Source: Aliiroseovarius zhejiangensis
Lineage (GTDB): Bacteria > Pseudomonadota > Alphaproteobacteria > Rhodobacterales > Rhodobacteraceae
Assembly (NCBI RefSeq): GCF_014656375.1
Contig: NZ_BNCH01000001.1
Coordinates: 558,001 to 622,000 of the forward strand
Direction of reading: 5' to 3'
Length of the DNA stretch: 64,000 bases
Shown one piece after another: positions 4,098 through 31,021 of the stretch; positions within the stretch are counted from its first letter, which is position 1, and every line of letters starts with the position of its first letter. Below the pieces are notes generated by a model. It had not been told where the DNA came from. It was given only the letters and a program-made list of their open reading frames with translations, and did not search any database. The position numbers and the translations under genes are program-made.

Positions 4098-4670
4098 TTA
4101 GACAACTCCGTAGGTAAACGCGCCATCATAGAAAATCGCAGCGTTGTAAAGGTTCGCGGCCTGTTCGAAAACGATGCCATCCAGGAAGCATCTGGCGGGA
4201 ACGACCGTGTTCAGGATCCGTTGCAGTTCGGCCCCTTGTTCGATCGTGATCGGTCTGGCCATATACACCCGATACGATGCCCAATGCAGCGCGCCACCAT
4301 ACGGCTCGGCACCGTCATAGCTGATCGACCCATCAAAAACGGCAGGGTTGACACCCTCGACCACCACGGCATTTCCGTACCCGGCCGCTTTCACAGCCGC
4401 CCGAACGGCGCCCAACGTGCCCTTGCGGCGATGCACCCTGATCGAACTGGCAACCACGGCCCGTTTCGTGTCCTCGGACCAGCCCGCATTCCAATCCTCG
4501 ACCGATGCCGCCCAGGCGTGAAACGGCAGCGCAGACGCCGGACAATCCTCGGTGGAGCCGATGCTTTGCACAGTGTCGACCAGACCTCTGTGGTCCAGCG
4601 CCGCCGCTTCCTCGATCGCGCGCTCCAACGGGGTCGCGTTTGGGGGCAGCAGGGTCTCGAAATCAGACAT
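4098..4670 (-). CDS. Phage tail protein I (baseplate wedge, P2 gpI-like)
   Basis: About 190 residues starting MSDFETLLPPNATPLERAIE, the typical P2 gpI opening (L-L-P-P-N-A-T-x-L-E). Also typical are FHAWAASVEDWNAGWSEDTK and VHRRKGTLGAVRAAVKAAGY. An in-frame ATG lies 12 bases upstream, but the start at 4670 follows a GGGGG Shine-Dalgarno run and gives the canonical N-terminus. gpI joins gpJ in the baseplate wedge. It overlaps the end of the J gene. Confidence 0.88.
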   Translation of the reverse strand: MSDFETLLPPNATPLERAIEEAAALDHRGLVDTVQSIGSTEDCPASALPFHAWAASVEDWNAGWSEDTKRAVVASSIRVHRRKGTLGAVRAAVKAAGYGNAVVVEGVNPAVFDGSISYDGAEPYGGALHWASYRVYMARPITIEQGAELQRILNTVVPARCFLDGIVFEQAANLYNAAIFYDGAFTYGVV

Positions 4671-17895: not shown

Positions 17896-18110
17896 TTGCC
17901 ACCCCCTGACCGCCCAGCGCGCAGCGCGGCAAGCTCAAGGGCCAAGCGTTCATGCAGGGCATCACGGGTGCGAACACGCAGGGCGGTGACGCCCGGTTCG
18001 CCCTCGTGGTCTCGGGTGCGCTTCACAAGCGCCTCATGGCGGCGCTGGGCGTCGACCACGTGGGGCGCCAGGTGCGGGTGCGGAAGGGTGACAGCTTTTG
18101 TCATGGTCAC
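17892..18110 (-). CDS. Hypothetical small phage protein
   Basis: 72 residues, His/Arg/Leu-rich (MTMTKAVTLPHPHLAPHVVD...), mostly helical with a Gly-rich end. No domain recognised. Overlaps of 4 bases with the DUF1064 gene and the GapR-like gene support it as a real coupled gene. Confidence 0.45.
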   Translation of the reverse strand: MTMTKAVTLPHPHLAPHVVDAQRRHEALVKRTRDHEGEPGVTALRVRTRDALHERLALELAALRAGRSGGGK

Positions 18111-18349
18111 ATGCCCAGCGCGGTTTTGTACACATCCAGCACCGCCTCTTCCTCGGCGATGTCGTCGGGCGTCCGTTTGCGCAGGGCGATCAGCTTGTTG
18201 ATCGTTTTCACGCAGTAGCCGCGCCCCTTGGCTTCGGCCATGACCTCTTTGCGCTGTTCGGCGATGTCCGACTTTTCCTGATCAAGGCGCTCTGCGCGTT
18301 CGATGAACTGGCGAAGCTCGGCGGCGGTTACTCGGTCGATATCAGACAT
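18107..18349 (-). CDS. GapR-like (DUF2312) nucleoid-associated protein, phage copy
   Basis: 80 residues, the usual length of alphaproteobacterial GapR. The translation shows the family pattern: LRQFIERAERLDQEKSDIAE, VMAEAKGRGYCVKTINKLIA and the C-terminal EEEAVLDVYKTALGM. GapR binds overtwisted AT-rich DNA ahead of replication forks and helps topoisomerases relax it. A phage-encoded copy next to the replication initiator and nuclease suggests a role in phage DNA replication or competition with host GapR. Confidence 0.85.
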   Translation of the reverse strand: MSDIDRVTAAELRQFIERAERLDQEKSDIAEQRKEVMAEAKGRGYCVKTINKLIALRKRTPDDIAEEEAVLDVYKTALGM

Positions 18350-18528: not shown

Positions 18529-18806
18529 TTGGATTTCCCTCTCTGGATGGATTGGCCCGCGAATTTCAGGGCGCGGGCAATATCGGCGGCAACGCAATCG
18601 GTCGCACCACGCTGAAACTGGACCGCATAGGCCCCGGTGATTTCGTCAAGGCCGTGCAGGTGCAGCCGCTTGGCCACCTGCGTTGCGGCCCCCCGGCGCG
18701 TCATGGGCGCGTGAATGACGCAATCACCAGCGGCCACATCGACCGTGACCAGAACATCGCCAAACCGCTGTCCATGCGTTTCAGGGTTTGCGTGAATGTC
18801 CGACAT
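18525..18806 (-). CDS. Hypothetical phage protein
   Basis: 93 residues starting MSDIHANPETHGQRFGDVLV. The segment VHAP-like GDCVIHAPMTRRGAATQVAK with ITGAYAVQFQRG suggests a small alpha/beta fold. Not recognised. It begins at the last base of the replication gene and overlaps the next gene by 4 bases. Confidence 0.45.
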   Translation of the reverse strand: MSDIHANPETHGQRFGDVLVTVDVAAGDCVIHAPMTRRGAATQVAKRLHLHGLDEITGAYAVQFQRGATDCVAADIARALKFAGQSIQRGKSK

Positions 18807-19657
18807 CACAGCACCCCCGCGGCTTTGCACTCGGCCTCGGTGACAAGCCCGCGGCGGATCAGGTCGCGCGCTTTGGCGGCTGACGTGGTGGTGGCCACCC
18901 AGGGCATCCGGGCTTTGATCGCCTCGGCGAGCTTCGCCAGAACGTCATCCTCGGTTGCGGCGGGCTTCGGCGCGCTGTGGCGCTTCCACCGCTCGTCGCG
19001 CAACCAGTTCTCGGAATAGGCGAGGTATTGCGGCTTGTTGCCCTTCTGCTCGTCGGCATAGGCGCGGGCAGCAGCCAAGATGTGGTCGGGATCCGCACCA
19101 CCATCCAGCGCGGCTTTCATCGCATCTTCGGTCGCTTCCGGGTCGCCGCCCCGCGGATAGATCGCCATGAAGCGATCAAGGAAATTCTGAAAATCAAAAC
19201 CTGTGTGTGTGGCGCCCTGCGACACACAAGGTTCCTTTACTGGTTCCTTTACTGGTTCTTCCTTTATGGAAACTCCACCTGAGTGGAGATAGGTTTGGCC
19301 AGAAAGTGGAGTTAGGTTTGGCTGAAAAGTGGAGTTAGGGCTATCTCCATTCAGTGGAGTTAGGTCTTGTGTCAAATCCTCGTCGCACCCCAAGATGTAG
19401 TGGGTCGGGCCGCGCTTCTTCTTCGCCTTGTCATAGGTTTTTTCGCGCAGGATCAGCCGCTTTTCTTCCAGCGCGGCCAAAGCATTGTTCAGGCCACCAT
19501 TGGACAGGCCGGTCTTGTCGCGCAGATACGCCTGCTTCGGAAAACAGCCTTGCGACGGGTTGTGGCAGTCGCACAGATGGAACAGCACACGAAACTCTCC
19601 ATGCGTCAGACGTGCAGGCTCGATCCCGGCCAACCAATGTGTTGCCTTGTGGCTCAT
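18806..19657 (-). CDS. Phage replication initiator, lambda O-like (winged helix plus C-terminal helical domain)
   Basis: 283 residues starting MSHKATHWLAGIEPARLTHG. Residues about 10-90 form a winged-helix domain (GEFRVLFHLCDCHNPSQGCF; YLRDKTGLSNGGLNNALAAL). A Thr/Pro/Ser-rich linker (about 100-145) is encoded by the iteron repeats, and the C-terminal part has FDFQNFLDRFMAIYPRGGDP and YLAYSENWLRDERW, typical of O- or DnaD-like replication proteins that hand the helicase to the origin. Its ATG overlaps the previous stop. As in lambda O, the likely origin lies inside the gene. Confidence 0.75.
   Translation of the reverse strand: MSHKATHWLAGIEPARLTHGEFRVLFHLCDCHNPSQGCFPKQAYLRDKTGLSNGGLNNALAALEEKRLILREKTYDKAKKKRGPTHYILGCDEDLTQDLTPLNGDSPNSTFQPNLTPLSGQTYLHSGGVSIKEEPVKEPVKEPCVSQGATHTGFDFQNFLDRFMAIYPRGGDPEATEDAMKAALDGGADPDHILAAARAYADEQKGNKPQYLAYSENWLRDERWKRHSAPKPAATEDDVLAKLAEAIKARMPWVATTTSAAKARDLIRRGLVTEAECKAAGVL
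19230..19266. repeat. Tandem 12-bp repeat beside the iterons (possible unwinding element)
   Basis: GGTTCCTTTACT occurs twice in tandem (19230-19241, 19242-19253), followed by a degenerate third unit. In the gene it encodes the repeated KEPVKEPVKEP-type peptide. It is richer in A/T than its surroundings and lies about 15-50 bases from the first iteron, which is the layout of an origin unwinding region next to initiator sites. Confidence 0.5.
19282..19364. repeat. Four iterons within the replication initiator gene (putative phage origin)
   Basis: AGTGGAGATAGG at 19282 and AGTGGAGTTAGG at 19305, 19328 and 19353 are directly repeated at spacings of 23, 23 and 25 bases. Inverted partial copies (ACTCCACC at 19272; CTATCTCCAT at 19341) flank them. 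The spacing places the sites on about the same helix face. Four iterons inside the O gene is the arrangement of the lambda origin. Confidence 0.7.
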
Positions 19658-19923
19658 ACCTGCCCCCGTTCGTTGTTGGTTGCCCCTGCACCGATCGCCA
19701 GCGGCGGCGCGATGCTCTCGGTCGGGGTGGGACCGTCCTTTTGACGCAATGCGGTATAACCACGCGGCAGGTTGCAGCCTGCATTCGCGCCCGGACCCCG
19801 TTGCGCCCTTGTTGTGACCACTCCGCAGGAATACGGGTGTGGAGGAAGTGTCCGGCCATGAAACACCCGGTCGAAAGACCGGCTGCGACATTCTTGTGAT
19901 ATTGTTGCGGTAGGATAGGTCAT
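19654..19923 (-). CDS. Hypothetical phage protein upstream of the replication gene
   Basis: 89 residues starting MTYPTATISQECRSRSFDRV. It has a His/Pro/Cys-containing middle (GRTLPPHPYSCGVVTTRAQR) and a low-complexity Ala/Gly/Asn end. No domain recognised. ATGA overlaps with both neighbours are the main support. Confidence 0.4.
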   Translation of the reverse strand: MTYPTATISQECRSRSFDRVFHGRTLPPHPYSCGVVTTRAQRGPGANAGCNLPRGYTALRQKDGPTPTESIAPPLAIGAGATNNERGQV

Positions 19924-24361: not shown

Positions 24362-24804
24362 CGGTAATTTTGAAGCAAGGCGTAACGAAGAAGACGTCGC
24401 CACTGATGAACGTTCCGACAAAGGAGAGAAAGCGCCTGATCGCTCGCGAAAGGAAAATTCGCCGCACAGGTCAATGGGGTGAATGGGAGCGTTTAGAAAA
24501 CCCTCACCGCTTCAAGTCAGGCTGGCTTGGTGAGGTTGACCATGTTCGCCGCAACAGAGTTTTCTCGGTCCTTGTCCGTGATGTCGGCACAGCCATTCAC
24601 CTTGGCATATCCAGCCTGACCGGCGACCGCCCTTCATTCCATGAAATGCAGCGTATCAAGAACGACTTGGCTGGACCAAACGCAACAGGGGTCGAGGTCT
24701 ATCCGCCACAAGAAGAACTCGTTGATGATGCCGAAATGTTCCACCTGTGGGTGCTGTTTGCGCCGCTGCCATTCTCTCTTTTCTCAAAGGAGCAAGACCA
24801 ATGA
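24358..24804 (+). CDS. DUF7694-like phage protein
   Basis: 148 residues starting MTVILKQGVTKKTSPLMNVP. After a basic N-terminus, the segment WLGEVDHVRRNRVFSVLVRD followed by PSFHEMQRIKNDLAGPNATG and a closing WVLFAPLPF fits a small phage family annotated DUF7694 (helper of the ASCH-type neighbour). Function unknown. Overlaps both neighbours by 4 bases. Confidence 0.6.
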   Translation: MTVILKQGVTKKTSPLMNVPTKERKRLIARERKIRRTGQWGEWERLENPHRFKSGWLGEVDHVRRNRVFSVLVRDVGTAIHLGISSLTGDRPSFHEMQRIKNDLAGPNATGVEVYPPQEELVDDAEMFHLWVLFAPLPFSLFSKEQDQ

Positions 24805-25271
24805 ACCACCGTGAACTCACAATCGCCGCCGCGTGTATTCTCGCGCTGATTGCCACCACCGCCGATGCCGGAGAGTTTAGGCTGAAAACAATCGAGTGGG
24901 ACAAATGCCGGGAGCCTGAGCCTCAGCCTGAACCGGAACCCCAGCCTGAACCCCAGCCGGAACCTGAACCAGAGCCGGAACCCAAAGACCCTCCGAAGAA
25001 GCCAAAGAAGCCAAAGAAAGAGCCGAAGCCGGTCAAGAAGCCCGCGCCGAAAAAACGACTGCCGGAACCGCGCGACAACGGCCCGCGCGTCAAGCCTGCA
25101 ACCCACGTCACCGTGTCCGTCATGCGGCCGAAGGCGGTTTGGGTTGACGACAAACACGGCATTTTCGGGGGTGGCTGGTCGCGGTCGCTGAAATGCACAT
25201 CGCCTGTCGGCACGTTCCCCAGCCGCGCCGCCCAGGTTGCTGACTGCAAAAAACGCGCGGGGTGGAAGTGA
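24801..25271 (+). CDS. Secreted Pro/Glu- and Pro/Lys-rich phage protein
   Basis: 156 residues. Residues 1-23 are a signal peptide (MNHRELTIAAACILALIATT then ADA). After a short domain with one Cys comes an E-P/Q-P repeat (about residues 37-61), a P-K repeat (about 62-87), and a folded C-terminal part of about 65 residues (THVTVSVMRPKAVWVDDKHG) with two more Cys. The charge-blocked proline arms resemble periplasm-spanning rods such as TonB. The target is unknown; a host-envelope role is an inference. Confidence 0.6.
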   Translation: MNHRELTIAAACILALIATTADAGEFRLKTIEWDKCREPEPQPEPEPQPEPQPEPEPEPEPKDPPKKPKKPKKEPKPVKKPAPKKRLPEPRDNGPRVKPATHVTVSVMRPKAVWVDDKHGIFGGGWSRSLKCTSPVGTFPSRAAQVADCKKRAGWK

Positions 25272-27515: not shown

Positions 27516-27776
27516 ATGTTGACTAACTGCAAATCATCAAAATTGGACTTCCGAAAGGGGCGAAAAATCCCCATATGTTCAGAGTGTGGTGGCAGCGTCT
27601 CGCTATACCTCGCATCAAAAGAGGTGGTCGCTGTCAGGCCGGAGGCCTCTCGATCAGACTATTGGATAGCGTGTGATGAACCCTCCTGCATTAACAACTA
27701 TGGCGACTACATGTTTCAGGAGGAGCCAGATTGGGTGATATGGCAACAGCCTGATGACTGCCCTGGCATTCTATGA
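27516..27776 (+). CDS. Small protein with zinc-ribbon-like cysteines
   Basis: 86 residues from the ATG at 27516, which follows GGAAGGGGG by 6 bases. A CSECGG motif at about 21-26 and a later CDEPSC form a possible two-knuckle zinc ribbon; the rest is Trp-rich (EEPDWVIWQQPDDCPGIL). Function unknown. It converges on the tailspike gene and overlaps it by 6 bases. Confidence 0.55.
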   Translation: MLTNCKSSKLDFRKGRKIPICSECGGSVSLYLASKEVVAVRPEASRSDYWIACDEPSCINNYGDYMFQEEPDWVIWQQPDDCPGIL

Positions 27777-29156
27777 CAGCCTCACCTCGCTGAACCGTTC
27801 GGTTTTTTCGTCTACCAGGATCTCGAATTTTGTGCCGCCTTCAGAGATGCGCGTAATGCGAAGTCCATCAGCAACAGCACCACCGTTTGACGCATAGACC
27901 ACTTTAATTACTGGTTCAGGCTGCGGATCAGGATCAGGCGTGGGTTCGGGGTCCGGGTCTGGTGTCGGATCAGGATTGGGTGCGGGGTCAGGATTTCCAA
28001 CAGCACCCGGATCAGGTCCGGTCGATGCCGCGTCGATCACGTTATCTGCAATGGTCCAGCCGTCCAGCGCGACCGCGCCCATATCGGTCTGCGTGTCGAA
28101 AATACGCTCGGGTTTGCGGTCATGATATTCAGGCGCCCCGTAAAACGCATTGCCCGTCACGACCACATTCTCACTCGCCGGATTTACCCGGATGGTTGGC
28201 ACCCGCATCATTGACCGGGCGTTGTATTTGTCAAAATGATACGCATTCGCCTCATAGTCCATGTTGGGCGATTGTTCTGAAATCAGGATGTTGCCATGGA
28301 TTGTCAGGCCCAGAAACTCGCCCGTGGTGATCCCGTGCAGGTGGCAGTTGCGGATGTAGTTGTCCTGAATGACAAAATCCCGATAGAACATCTCGCGTCC
28401 GGCGCGTCCGTTGTCGACTTCCTCATTCCGAATGAAAATCGACTGCTGCCACCCACCCATCCCGATGTCCAGAATGTTGTCGCGAATGGTCACACGCTCG
28501 CTGGGGACGTTCGTGCCATTGGTCCAGAACTGGATCATGTCGCGATGATCGCCGGGGTTTTTCGTGGCAAGGAAATCGTGGATCCAGTTGTCCGCGATCA
28601 GAACATCCTGCACGGCGGCAAAATCCATGCCGTCTGACCGTAGCGAATGAATGTTGTTATTTGTCACGGTCAGGCCCGCCGTATCGGTCATCACGGTGCC
28701 GCGATGGAACCATTTGACCTCACAGCCCGTCACGGTCACGTTGCTGCAATGCTCAATGGTCAGGCCGTGACTGGTTGGCGTCCCCTCGTCATTGAACGCA
28801 CCGAAAAACTGGCAGTTTTCCAGTTTGATATTGGTCGATTTCATGACCTCGATAGACCGCAAATGTTTCGGATCGCCCGACTGGTAAACATGGGTGAATG
28901 TCAGATCGCGCAGGGTCATATTGTGGCAGCGCCCGAATTTGACACTGCCGTCGCTGATAGATGTCAGAACCGCCCGGTCATCAGGATCAGCCGACCGGAT
29001 GACAACCTCGCTGTCATAGCTGGTCATATGCTCGGTGCTATTGTCCAGGCTCACCCGGCCATAGTCACCCGGCGCCAGTACGATCTCATCCCCACCCGAT
29101 GCAGCCTCGAGTGCCGCCATCAGCTCGGCGTGGGTCGTCACGTTATGTGTTGTCAT
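27771..29156 (-). CDS. Right-handed beta-helix tailspike / polysaccharide lyase-like protein
   Basis: 461 residues. Residues about 10-350 are a parallel beta-helix of the pectate-lyase/chondroitinase B type (AASGGDEIVLAPGDYGRVSL; repeated N-V-T-V-T-G-C and L-T-I-H-G-N coils). A Pro-Asp repeat linker follows (about 380-405, PDPAPNPDPTPDPDPEPTPD), then a small C-terminal beta domain. No N-terminal virion anchor was seen, so attachment may go through the C-terminal part or a partner. A likely role is binding or cleaving host surface polysaccharide. Confidence 0.7.
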   Translation of the reverse strand: MTTHNVTTHAELMAALEAASGGDEIVLAPGDYGRVSLDNSTEHMTSYDSEVVIRSADPDDRAVLTSISDGSVKFGRCHNMTLRDLTFTHVYQSGDPKHLRSIEVMKSTNIKLENCQFFGAFNDEGTPTSHGLTIEHCSNVTVTGCEVKWFHRGTVMTDTAGLTVTNNNIHSLRSDGMDFAAVQDVLIADNWIHDFLATKNPGDHRDMIQFWTNGTNVPSERVTIRDNILDIGMGGWQQSIFIRNEEVDNGRAGREMFYRDFVIQDNYIRNCHLHGITTGEFLGLTIHGNILISEQSPNMDYEANAYHFDKYNARSMMRVPTIRVNPASENVVVTGNAFYGAPEYHDRKPERIFDTQTDMGAVALDGWTIADNVIDAASTGPDPGAVGNPDPAPNPDPTPDPDPEPTPDPDPQPEPVIKVVYASNGGAVADGLRITRISEGGTKFEILVDEKTERFSEVRLS

Positions 29157-29172
29157 TTTTCACCTCCCTGGG

Positions 29173-29754
29173 TCATGCGACCCGGTTCATCCAGAATGTG
29201 CTATTCGGCCCGTCGAAAATCACTGTGCCATTGGGACTGGCTGGCACATCATAGGTCGTGTGTGTTCCCGACGCCCCCATGTTCGCCAACGTAAACTCGA
29301 TATAATCGCCCGCCGTCAGGTTGATCGGACGCGGGGCAATCTCCATCACCCAATAGGCCCAGCCGTCAGAGTTGCGGACGTAGCCTGATCCGCGAAACAG
29401 GCCATCCCAGACACCATTTTTGGATACCTGCAATGCCGCCTGCACCCGTGCATGGGGCGAATGATAGGCAACGACAGCGCCGACCTCATAAACGCCGCTC
29501 GTGCCAGCGGTCAGGCGCGTGTTGTTTGCGCCAGCCCACGTCACGTCCGTGCCGTAACTGTCTCCCGCCGTGTCCAGCGGGATCAGGAGGGGCGTGTTGG
29601 CATAGCTCGTGTCGGTGCTGGATCGGTCCATGAAGCTGTAGACCGAACCGCCGCCGCCGCCACTGCCCTCCAATGTGGTCACGCGGCTATCCAGGCTATC
29701 AAAATCGCCCTTGATCGCCGTGATCAGCGCGGCCATGCGCGTTTGCAGCGACAT
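29173..29754 (-). CDS. Fibre-like protein with C-terminal C1q/TNF-like jelly roll
   Basis: 193 residues. The N-terminus MSLQTRMAALITAIKGDFDS followed by LDSRVTTLEG forms a short coiled coil and a Gly5 hinge. The rest is a beta-sandwich (GVYEVGAVVAYHSPHARVQA, then LQVSKNGVWDG) with a C1q/TNF-like pattern used by trimeric receptor-binding heads. The start shares its opening MSLQTR with the next gene, suggesting a common attachment motif or duplication. Confidence 0.65.
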   Translation of the reverse strand: MSLQTRMAALITAIKGDFDSLDSRVTTLEGSGGGGGSVYSFMDRSSTDTSYANTPLLIPLDTAGDSYGTDVTWAGANNTRLTAGTSGVYEVGAVVAYHSPHARVQAALQVSKNGVWDGLFRGSGYVRNSDGWAYWVMEIAPRPINLTAGDYIEFTLANMGASGTHTTYDVPASPNGTVIFDGPNSTFWMNRVA

Positions 29755-30212
29755 TAGGCAGCGTTCCAGATGGCAACGAGGTCGGTTTCAGGATCGCCAA
29801 GCTGCGCCTGTGTATAGACATCGGACGCATTCGCTTTGGTCGCGAGTTGCGCCGTCACGCTCGCAGCATAGTTCGCATCGTCAGCAAGCGCCGCCGCCAG
29901 CTCGTTCAGCGTGTCCAGTGCAGCGGGCGCACCGCCGATGAGGGCGTTGACCGCTGCTGCAATCTCGGTGTCGATTTTCGAGGATGACCAGGCCTGCGTT
30001 GTATTGGTTGCGCCATCATTGATCGCAACCCCACCGCCTGCCGCGCCATCGGCGGTGGCCTTCACCTCGTTCAGGGCATCAACCAGGTTTGTCGCTGTTG
30101 TGTTCAGACCCGACACGTCACCATTGTTCGCGCCGCTGATGAATGTGCGCAGGGATTTTGTTTCGGTCTTGATCGCTGTAACCAGCGCGTTCAGTCGTGT
30201 TTGCAAAGACAT
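29754..30212 (-). CDS. Tail fibre-like helical protein
   Basis: 152 residues starting MSLQTRLNALVTAIKTETKS, then Ala/Asn/Thr-rich helical repeats (GLNTTATNLVDALNEVKATA; WSSSKIDTEIAAAVNALIGG). This is typical of the shaft of phage fibres found in Rhodobacteraceae prophages. Its stop overlaps the start of the jelly-roll gene by a base. No enzymatic motif. Confidence 0.62.
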   Translation of the reverse strand: MSLQTRLNALVTAIKTETKSLRTFISGANNGDVSGLNTTATNLVDALNEVKATADGAAGGGVAINDGATNTTQAWSSSKIDTEIAAAVNALIGGAPAALDTLNELAAALADDANYAASVTAQLATKANASDVYTQAQLGDPETDLVAIWNAA

Positions 30213-30224
30213 TTTTCGTGCCTC

Positions 30225-30449
30225 CTATGAAAATGCAAATAGTGCGGCCAGATCGCCGGGGTCATAGTCGTCAGCGCCAGCCACATAAACGCCATCCGCC
30301 CGCATTTCCGCATCATTCCCCGCATCGCCCGAAATCTGCACCGTGGCGGGGGGCGACAGGTCAACGGCACCGAGTTTCAACACGATCTCTGACCGGCCCA
30401 CATCGACCAGGTGCGGGTCTTGGTTGAAGGGTCGCAGTTTAAGTTTCAT
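30225..30449 (-). CDS. Hypothetical protein of the fibre cassette
   Basis: 74 residues starting MKLKLRPFNQDPHLVDVGRS. Beta-rich and acidic with a terminal hydrophobic AALFAFS. Not recognised. It overlaps the upstream gene by 11 bases and lies in a strictly co-oriented cassette. Confidence 0.5.
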   Translation of the reverse strand: MKLKLRPFNQDPHLVDVGRSEIVLKLGAVDLSPPATVQISGDAGNDAEMRADGVYVAGADDYDPGDLAALFAFS

Positions 30450-30768
30450 CGCGCGTGATCCCCCGCGTGACTTTGACATGGATGGTGTCGGTGTGGCGCT
30501 TGCGGCCATCGGGGCTGACCACGAACAGATCCCAAGTCAGTATCTGCCCATGTGGCCATCCCGCGACCTCTGCGGCGGGTGCCTGAACCCGGAATAGGCT
30601 AGGGTATGTGGTGACAGTCAGATCCTGCACCAATGCCGCGCCTCTGCTGTCGCGGGCCTGGCTCGTTGCTGTCCAACCGGTCAGGTCGAATGGTTGGTCA
30701 TCATCAGTGAACGCATCGAACGCATAATCGAAGGTGTCGCCTGTTTTGTGTTCAATCAGAAAGTCCAT
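30439..30768 (-). CDS. Hypothetical protein of the fibre cassette (BppU-N-like)
   Basis: 109 residues starting MDFLIEHKTGDTFDYAFDAF. A beta-sandwich pattern with FDLTGWTATSQARDSRGAAL and LTWDLFVVSPDGRKRHTDTI is like the N-terminal domain of baseplate upper protein BppU and related fibre-anchoring proteins. Start at 30768 chosen over 30777. First gene of the cassette; an 18-bp repeat lies 60 bases upstream. It may anchor the fibre proteins to the virion. Confidence 0.55.
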   Translation of the reverse strand: MDFLIEHKTGDTFDYAFDAFTDDDQPFDLTGWTATSQARDSRGAALVQDLTVTTYPSLFRVQAPAAEVAGWPHGQILTWDLFVVSPDGRKRHTDTIHVKVTRGITRDET

Positions 30769-30827
30769 GCCACCCAAGCCGAAAGAATAAACCGCGCAGT
30801 CGCATGGTCAGCGAAGGGCGTGTTTTC

Positions 30828-30844
30828 TTCCTCTGGCGGGTTCC
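30828..30844 (-). repeat. Interspersed prophage repeat, copy 5
   Basis: Plus strand TTCCTCTGGCGGGTTCC, one base shorter than the other copies. It is upstream of the fibre cassette and about 90 bases from tRNA-Leu, at the right edge of the prophage. It shares 22 bases with copy 2. Confidence 0.8.
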
Positions 30845-30859
30845 TTGCAAGAATTCGCT

Positions 30860-30880
30860 TGGGGGACCAGATGGGGGACC
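30860..30880. repeat. Direct repeat TGGGGGACC at 12-base period beside tRNA-Leu
   Basis: TGGGGGACC occurs at 30860-30868 and 30872-30880. The position between the last phage gene and the tRNA 3' end, and the 12-base period, match the CGTTTACA pair next to the second element's integrase. They may be integrase arm-type sites. Confidence 0.5.
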
Positions 30881-30934
30881 GGGGAGCGCGCGCGGCGCTA
30901 CACGCCTGTAATTAAATAGGTTAATGCTTGAATT

Positions 30935-31021
30935 TGGTGCGGGCGGTGGGACTCGAACCCACACGGGGCTACGCCCCAACAGATTTTAAGTCTGGTATGT
31001 CTACCATTCCATCACGCCCGC
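30935..31021 (-). tRNA. tRNA-Leu (UAA anticodon), probable prophage attachment site
   Basis: The minus strand reads GCGGGCG at the 5' end, pairing with CGCCCGC, with the discriminator and encoded CCA following. The anticodon arm ACTTAAAATC gives the anticodon UAA. A long variable arm (GGGGCGTAGCCCC) and the TTCGAGTCC T-loop confirm a type II leucine tRNA. The 3' end faces the prophage, as in tRNA-targeted integration. Confidence 0.95.

Follow-up and report, generated by a model that had tools for sequence, protein, structure and literature searches.

The repeat array described here lies in the window (the whole stretch of 64,000 nucleotides that was analysed) and is very probably the origin of replication of a prophage, lying within the gene of the prophage's own initiator and working by the mechanism proposed below. 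The array is kept in its geometry among relatives, the DNA is under selection beyond the peptide that it encodes, and the iteron letters covary with the recognition helix of the protein. It is this concerted change of the sites and of the presumed contacting part of the protein in about 200 related genes that makes the array very probably the start of replication. A phage replication origin inside the initiator gene had been proposed in a preliminary description of this DNA; the geometry in relatives and the helix covariation strongly support it, short of proof.

The start of the initiator gene (Table 1) was judged by the relatives and is not the first ATG of the 361-aa open reading frame. The product matches the PHROG 270 profile "replication initiation protein" over residues 15–242 and, weakly, three "O-like" PHROG families; the HTH_36 match of Pfam is found in the N-domain. 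The AlphaFold model (mean pLDDT 78, pTM 0.38) comprises the N-domain (residues 1–94) with helix 53–65 in the recognition position and a helical C-domain from residue ~155, the confidence being very low at residues 95–120 and 127–152. Both the iterons and the 12-mer are encoded within this low-confidence, predicted mostly disordered linker (residues 95–152), so the repeats do occupy the linker-coding part of the gene, as had been stated. The best solved relatives of the N-domain by sequence profile are MarR/SlyA-type regulators. The C-domain presumably contacts host replication proteins. It has no Pfam match, and its fold search gave at best a Foldseek E of 4.0 and a Z of 4.0, which does not in itself demonstrate a new fold. 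For the full model no Foldseek match in the PDB is found below E 0.001, and among the viral fold matches is a protein of phage Min27, putatively its replication protein O (E 2.3e-4, low TM-scores).

Table 1. Features of the initiator gene and of the putative embedded origin (positions in the window).
Feature	Position	Strand	Evidence
Replication initiator gene, 283 aa	18806..19657	-	PHROG 270 E 4.9e-24; HTH_36 E 8.9e-9
Winged-helix N-domain, residues 1-94	19376..19657	-	AlphaFold model, HTH_36
Recognition helix, residues 53-65	19463..19501	-	model helix 53-65; covariation with iterons
Linker-coding stretch holding putative origin, residues 95-152	19202..19375	-	pLDDT <50 at 95-120 and 127-152
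Helical C-domain, residues 155-283	18809..19195	-	structure model
Iteron 1, CCTAACTCCACT on coding strand	19353..19364	-	
Inverted half-site adjoining iteron 1	19341..19351	+	inverted repeat
Iteron 2, CCTAACTCCACT	19328..19339	-	
Iteron 3, CCTAACTCCACT	19305..19316	-	
Iteron 4, CCTATCTCCACT	19282..19293	-	
Inverted half-site adjoining iteron 4	about 19268..19279	+	read from sequence; repeat-score match at same place
A/T-richer tandem element, GGTTCCTTTACT on + strand	19230..19267	.	tandem repeat; G+C dip; relatives

On the + strand the iterons read AGTGGAGATAGG at 19282–19293 and AGTGGAGTTAGG at 19305, 19328 and 19353. Their starts are spaced by 25, 23 and 23 bp along the coding strand and use all three frames, the single word being translated as LTPL, PNST and YLHS within the gene. 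The four 12-base iterons with 23–25 base spacing of the preliminary description are thus found at their positions, one copy having a mismatch. The inverted partial copies that it mentioned are present as well, and because they lie at 19268–19279 and 19341–19351 the outer iterons (1 and 4) are dyads and the inner ones (2 and 3), having no inverted partner in the window, are not. After the iterons on the coding strand, i.e. on the C-terminal-coding side, follow 2.4 tandem copies of a 12-mer (19230–19258; AGTAAAGGAACC on the coding strand). G+C of 60-base windows is 45–47% over 19230–19379 versus 47–73% elsewhere in 18600–19889; the adjoining tandem repeat described earlier is A/T-rich only in relative terms. 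This element is the probable candidate for the unwinding region.

None of 1000 synonymous-codon shuffles reached the observed repeat score of the window gene, and two iteron pairs 23 bp apart with ≤2 mismatches are found in the window versus 0.03 expected from dinucleotide shuffles. As a control, 2 of 67 stretches from 16 other open reading frames of the window beat 20 shuffles. A looser pair pattern gives two overlapping matches in the 3.4-Mb genome, solely at the initiator locus; read backwards as a control, the same pattern gives one match in the genome. For the relatives, which we divided into a core of 215 and a distant group of 19 (five others, not long enough to contain the stretch, being omitted from the shuffle test), the maximum of 50 synonymous shuffles is exceeded by 192 core genes and 12 distant ones, and is not exceeded by 23 and 7, respectively. 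The lambda O gene itself fails this test (score 4.4 versus a null maximum of 5.2); the test is therefore insensitive, and the failures of other genes tell little. The repeat word occurs in all three frames of the majority strand in 171 of the 215 core genes.

The relatives were drawn from viral contigs (in two of the searches the 80 matches listed), from the order and the class, from genome contigs and from phage records. The initiator is matched in 158 of 390 genomes of the order and in 82 of 385 of the class (many weakly), and 60 further places were extracted from these genomes; genome contigs gave 2 loci, and 5 of the 15 matching phage records were used. Among the matches listed there are 239 distinct genes in total. 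Omission of seven weak matches (L108, L115, L119, L120, L125, L128 and L129) leaves 232 genes in the domain alignment, 34 of which have no safe iteron register and stand outside the covariation tables, although iterons with other letters are evident in several of them. The 198 genes with a register were dereplicated to 130.

The geometry of the array is conserved in the dereplicated set. Of the 130 genes, 117 have a last spacing of 23 bp and 115 a middle one of this length; the first is 25 bp in 75 genes and 37 bp in 23, no first spacing being found in 22. An inverted partner accompanies the last iteron in 123/130 genes and the first in 91/130, and both inner iterons are without one in 100 of the 108 genes that have the first iteron. 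The four direct iterons cover all three frames in 101/130 genes. We name this arrangement the dyad-bracketed half-site array. The relatives had been proposed as a check, vanishing repeats counting against the origin; the opposite is seen, namely the geometry is kept and the letters track the recognition helix. An array of a different style occurs in L122, from another alphaproteobacterial family, where nine direct repeats of the TGAGCAGG type at 22–24 bp lie in an initiator-like open reading frame and inverted copies are absent.

The element behind the iterons has its own signature in the relatives. Its G+C is 0.505 versus 0.611, and it is below the value of its own gene in 122/130. Valine is encoded there by GTA in 241 of 265 codons versus 66 of 1441 in the remainder of these genes, and the word CCNGTAA has a mean of 1.40 per gene versus 0.21 in synonymous shuffles, being present in two frames in 11 genes. 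Judged by this codon and word usage, the element is selected as DNA too. A single frame holds 165 of the 182 word matches in the element, which may therefore have a peptide role as well.

For the comparison of protein and iterons, bases are numbered along the half-site reference CCGTGTCCGGA and residues as in the window protein. The register was fitted by the pattern CYRWST, which limits base 5 to C or G and makes no use of the helix. Arg53 pairs with G at base 5 (GTGTCC) in 112 of 115 genes, and Asn, Val, Ile, Leu, Pro or Ser at this residue with C in all 82; the sole gene with Tyr53 has G. Base 8 is other than C in 20/20 genes with Arg58 versus 0/178 with another residue. A scan of the domain columns, with pairs matched for identity outside the helix, places residue 53 first for base 5 (it differs in 100% of the pairs differing at base 5 versus 13% of the matched non-differing pairs), residue 54 first and 58 second for base 9, and residue 55 first, by a small margin, for base 10. 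Among the columns that have data for base 8, residue 54 comes first and 58 third.

The tree for the pair tests was built without the helix columns; it has few columns, and many of its forks lack resolution. Greedy independent pairs on the best tree agree for residue 53 in 6 of 6 cases (p 0.031) and for residue 58 in 4 of 4 (p 0.125). A stricter count on supported branches leaves 2 independent pairs per trait and therefore cannot reach significance. In the pair and column tests L122, L104 and L004 were left out, and L228 and L236 were re-registered by hand; the exceptions for residue 53 among the 130 genes are L104 (uncertain register), L122 (distant) and the hand-re-registered L228 and L236. 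Several switches occur between near relatives, at forks mostly weakly supported: L295 and L301 (window-clade query) have SRSTVN with GTGTCC amid SNG-type relatives with TCTCC; L066 and L163 have SRSALND with GTGTCC amid SVSALN/SISALN relatives with ATCTCC; and L168 has SLSALNE with GACTCC (iteron CCGACTCCGGA) next to L069 with SRSALNE and GTGTCC (iteron CCGTGTCCGGA). The GRATLFR group (L052, L060, L062, L063 and L104–L106) fits only with GTCTCAA shifted by two bases, a shift chosen by eye, and the group is not counted as support. Of all the evidence, the covariation speaks most strongly for the predicted binding of the iterons by the initiator.

The proposed mechanism follows the analogy to lambda (PMC7466680 and PMC6022878), from which the binding, its stoichiometry, strand opening, helicase recruitment and the start of replication are inferred. 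The winged-helix N-domain would read the half-site (core A/T-C-T-C-C-A) through its recognition helix. Each dyad would accommodate two initiator molecules, the dyads bracketing the array, and each inner iteron would bind one molecule, or one together with a weaker second. The sites are about two helical turns apart, and the bound molecules would therefore lie on one face of the DNA. Such an initiator complex may strain and open the GTAAAGGAACC tandem, the A/T-richer element that adjoins the iterons on the C-terminal-coding side; the host helicase may then be recruited by the C-domain.

The resemblance of the N-domain to MarR/SlyA-type regulators, along with the annotation of one phage relative as putative transcriptional regulator, would suit an autoregulatory operator, by which the protein binds its own gene and limits its expression while replication starts elsewhere. 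This is unlikely: the best-matching protein families are replication initiators, the A/T-richer element is on one fixed side of the iterons, and a consensus-only search for sigma-70-like promoters in 18700–19800 gave no match on either strand. Plasmid iterons serve copy control as well, and the iterons may by this token be a copy-control, incompatibility or partition site instead of a start site, which is very improbable. A partition protein is named in none of the 10 module proteins scanned. Avoidance of a common iteron core between resident prophages was considered and rejected: the 7-base core is common to 8 of 27 within-genome prophage pairs versus 823 of 3054 different-genome pairs (81 loci with genomes; one locus, L103, has no table entry), and at such similar rates no avoidance is seen. 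Because the same core is often shared within a genome, cross-activation between resident prophages is possible. The remaining explanation, that Pro-rich motifs are maintained in the linker for the sake of the protein (relatives have linker peptides like PxPxxGDG and EPVKEPVKEP in common) and the DNA repeats merely reflect the peptide, is most improbable of all, being refuted for the iterons by the use of three frames in the 171 core genes and opposed by the inverted occurrence of the word and by the loss of the DNA repeats in peptide-preserving synonymous shuffles.

The putative embedded origin was compared with known systems. Type-specific origins of a comparable embedded kind are present in P22, phi80 and 82. 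Like the present array, lambda ori (L305) has four iterons (20, 24 and 23 bp apart) midway along the initiator gene, and their starts fall in three different frames. According to the consulted parts of PMC7466680 and PMC6022878, the lambda iterons lie within the initiator gene O with an A/T-rich stretch on the C-terminal-coding side. Unlike here, where only the outer iterons are dyads, every lambda iteron is an 18-bp dyad, and the letters differ; the lambda tract behind the iterons has 27% G+C in 55 bases, the window element being far milder. Of the lambda ori layout with unrelated sequence, as initially described, the embedded iterons, their spacing and the adjacent A/T-richer element hold, and the inverted half is missing from the inner iterons. 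The links between lambda O and the window protein are indirect: PHROG 345, 391 and 678 are matched by both (E 2.5e-6 to 0.0028 for the window protein). Direct homology of the window protein to the single lambda O sequence was not found by hhalign (probability 3.4% and 0.5%). As direct homology was not found and the inner iterons are not dyads, we do not place it in the lambda O family. In its proposed working the array nevertheless resembles lambda ori. A helicase loader is named in none of the 9 other window proteins and, a truncated initiator copy set aside, in none of the 9 L001 proteins scanned; many of these proteins have no assigned function.

Iterons of the pSK41 type are located within repA. 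The N-domain fold resembles those of RepA_N initiators (pSK41, pTZ2162 and PLE RepA), with Z 9.2 for 4pql_A (2.7 Å, 81 residues), 8.9 for 4pt7_B and 8.4 for 5kbj_G, other winged helices scoring alike. As in the RepA_N initiators outlined in the consulted part of PMC7145576, a DNA-binding N-domain is combined with a variable C-domain and semi-palindromic iterons. A Pfam scan of the window protein with a limit of E 0.1 gave no RepA_N match. The RepC of repABC replicons, as treated in the consulted part of PMC3155836, likewise belongs to an alphaproteobacterial replicon whose initiator gene contains the origin, and replication is lost when the A+T-rich region of this origin is altered by silent changes; unlike the present array, the RepC origin is described there as having no iterons. 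The scan at E 0.1 showed no RP-C domain in the window protein either, and five relatives scanned gave only below-cut-off matches, in L018 and L037. The Rep of geminiviruses is an unrelated protein acting in rolling-circle replication. Its iterons, similarly to those described here, vary even among near relatives and show a specific interaction with their cognate initiator, and unlike them are located upstream of the Rep gene (consulted part of PMC12548392).

The C-domain also occurs in six proteins behind another winged-helix N-domain. These were taken as a negative control, which failed, since four of the six (L009, L010, L020 and L022, the last two near-identical) carry repeats that exceed every one of 20 synonymous shuffles, unlike L019 and L026. 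The repeat arrays of the four have other letters. As the C-domain stands behind other winged-helix domains, four of six with arrays of their own, these sequences suggest that the N-domain and iterons may form an exchangeable unit. Two of the proteins belong to the source genome, L009 (C1:680327-680713) with repeats of the TGAACCCC type and L010 (C9:11212-11538) with repeats of the GGCAAATC type, and are perhaps initiators of other mobile elements. Whether the gene is a one-gene replicon cassette, in which the N-domain is passed on jointly with its cognate sites and the unwinding element, and in which recognition-helix residues 53 (base 5), 58 (base 8), 54 and 58 (base 9) and 55 (base 10) predict the origin sequence of a phage not yet characterised, we regard as evenly balanced.

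Replication origins have been mapped experimentally in few phages. A search by title and abstract start of the open-licence literature, most subscription papers being outside its scope, gave no account of the origin of this initiator family and no code between recognition helix and iterons in phage initiators. If the proposed reading is true, sequence alone could reveal the origin and the recognised bases in a large group of alphaproteobacterial prophages. Their natural variants would then be a ready test set for how a winged helix reads DNA, as well as for the evolution of an origin whose bases must at the same time encode protein in three frames.

The search that gave no promoter gave one terminator-like site versus 1.3 expected, and DnaA boxes (TTWTNCACA) occur twice in the window (6598 and 53402), about the chance number. 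On the strand of the initiator gene lie nearby a gene of a GapR-like DNA-binding protein (18107–18349, E 2.9e-28), one of a Holliday-junction resolvase and one of a late activator. In L001, too, the initiator is followed by representatives of these three families, the GapR-like one being of the same PHROG. Head and contractile-tail genes are found further along in the window. An open reading frame at 24747–25271 encodes Pro-Glu and then Pro-Lys repeats (tandem repeats at 24913–25018). The region 27771–31021 holds a right-handed beta-helix, tail-spike-like gene and small open reading frames and ends near tRNA-Leu (30935–31021), which is possibly the prophage edge; an integrase is named in none of the few proteins scanned there. 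In L001, a contig that is also listed as L274, the initiator is directly preceded by a tandem copy of its N-domain (4125–4454), truncated and ending inside the first iteron dyad; it arose perhaps by recombination between iterons, or is perhaps a DNA-binding competitor.
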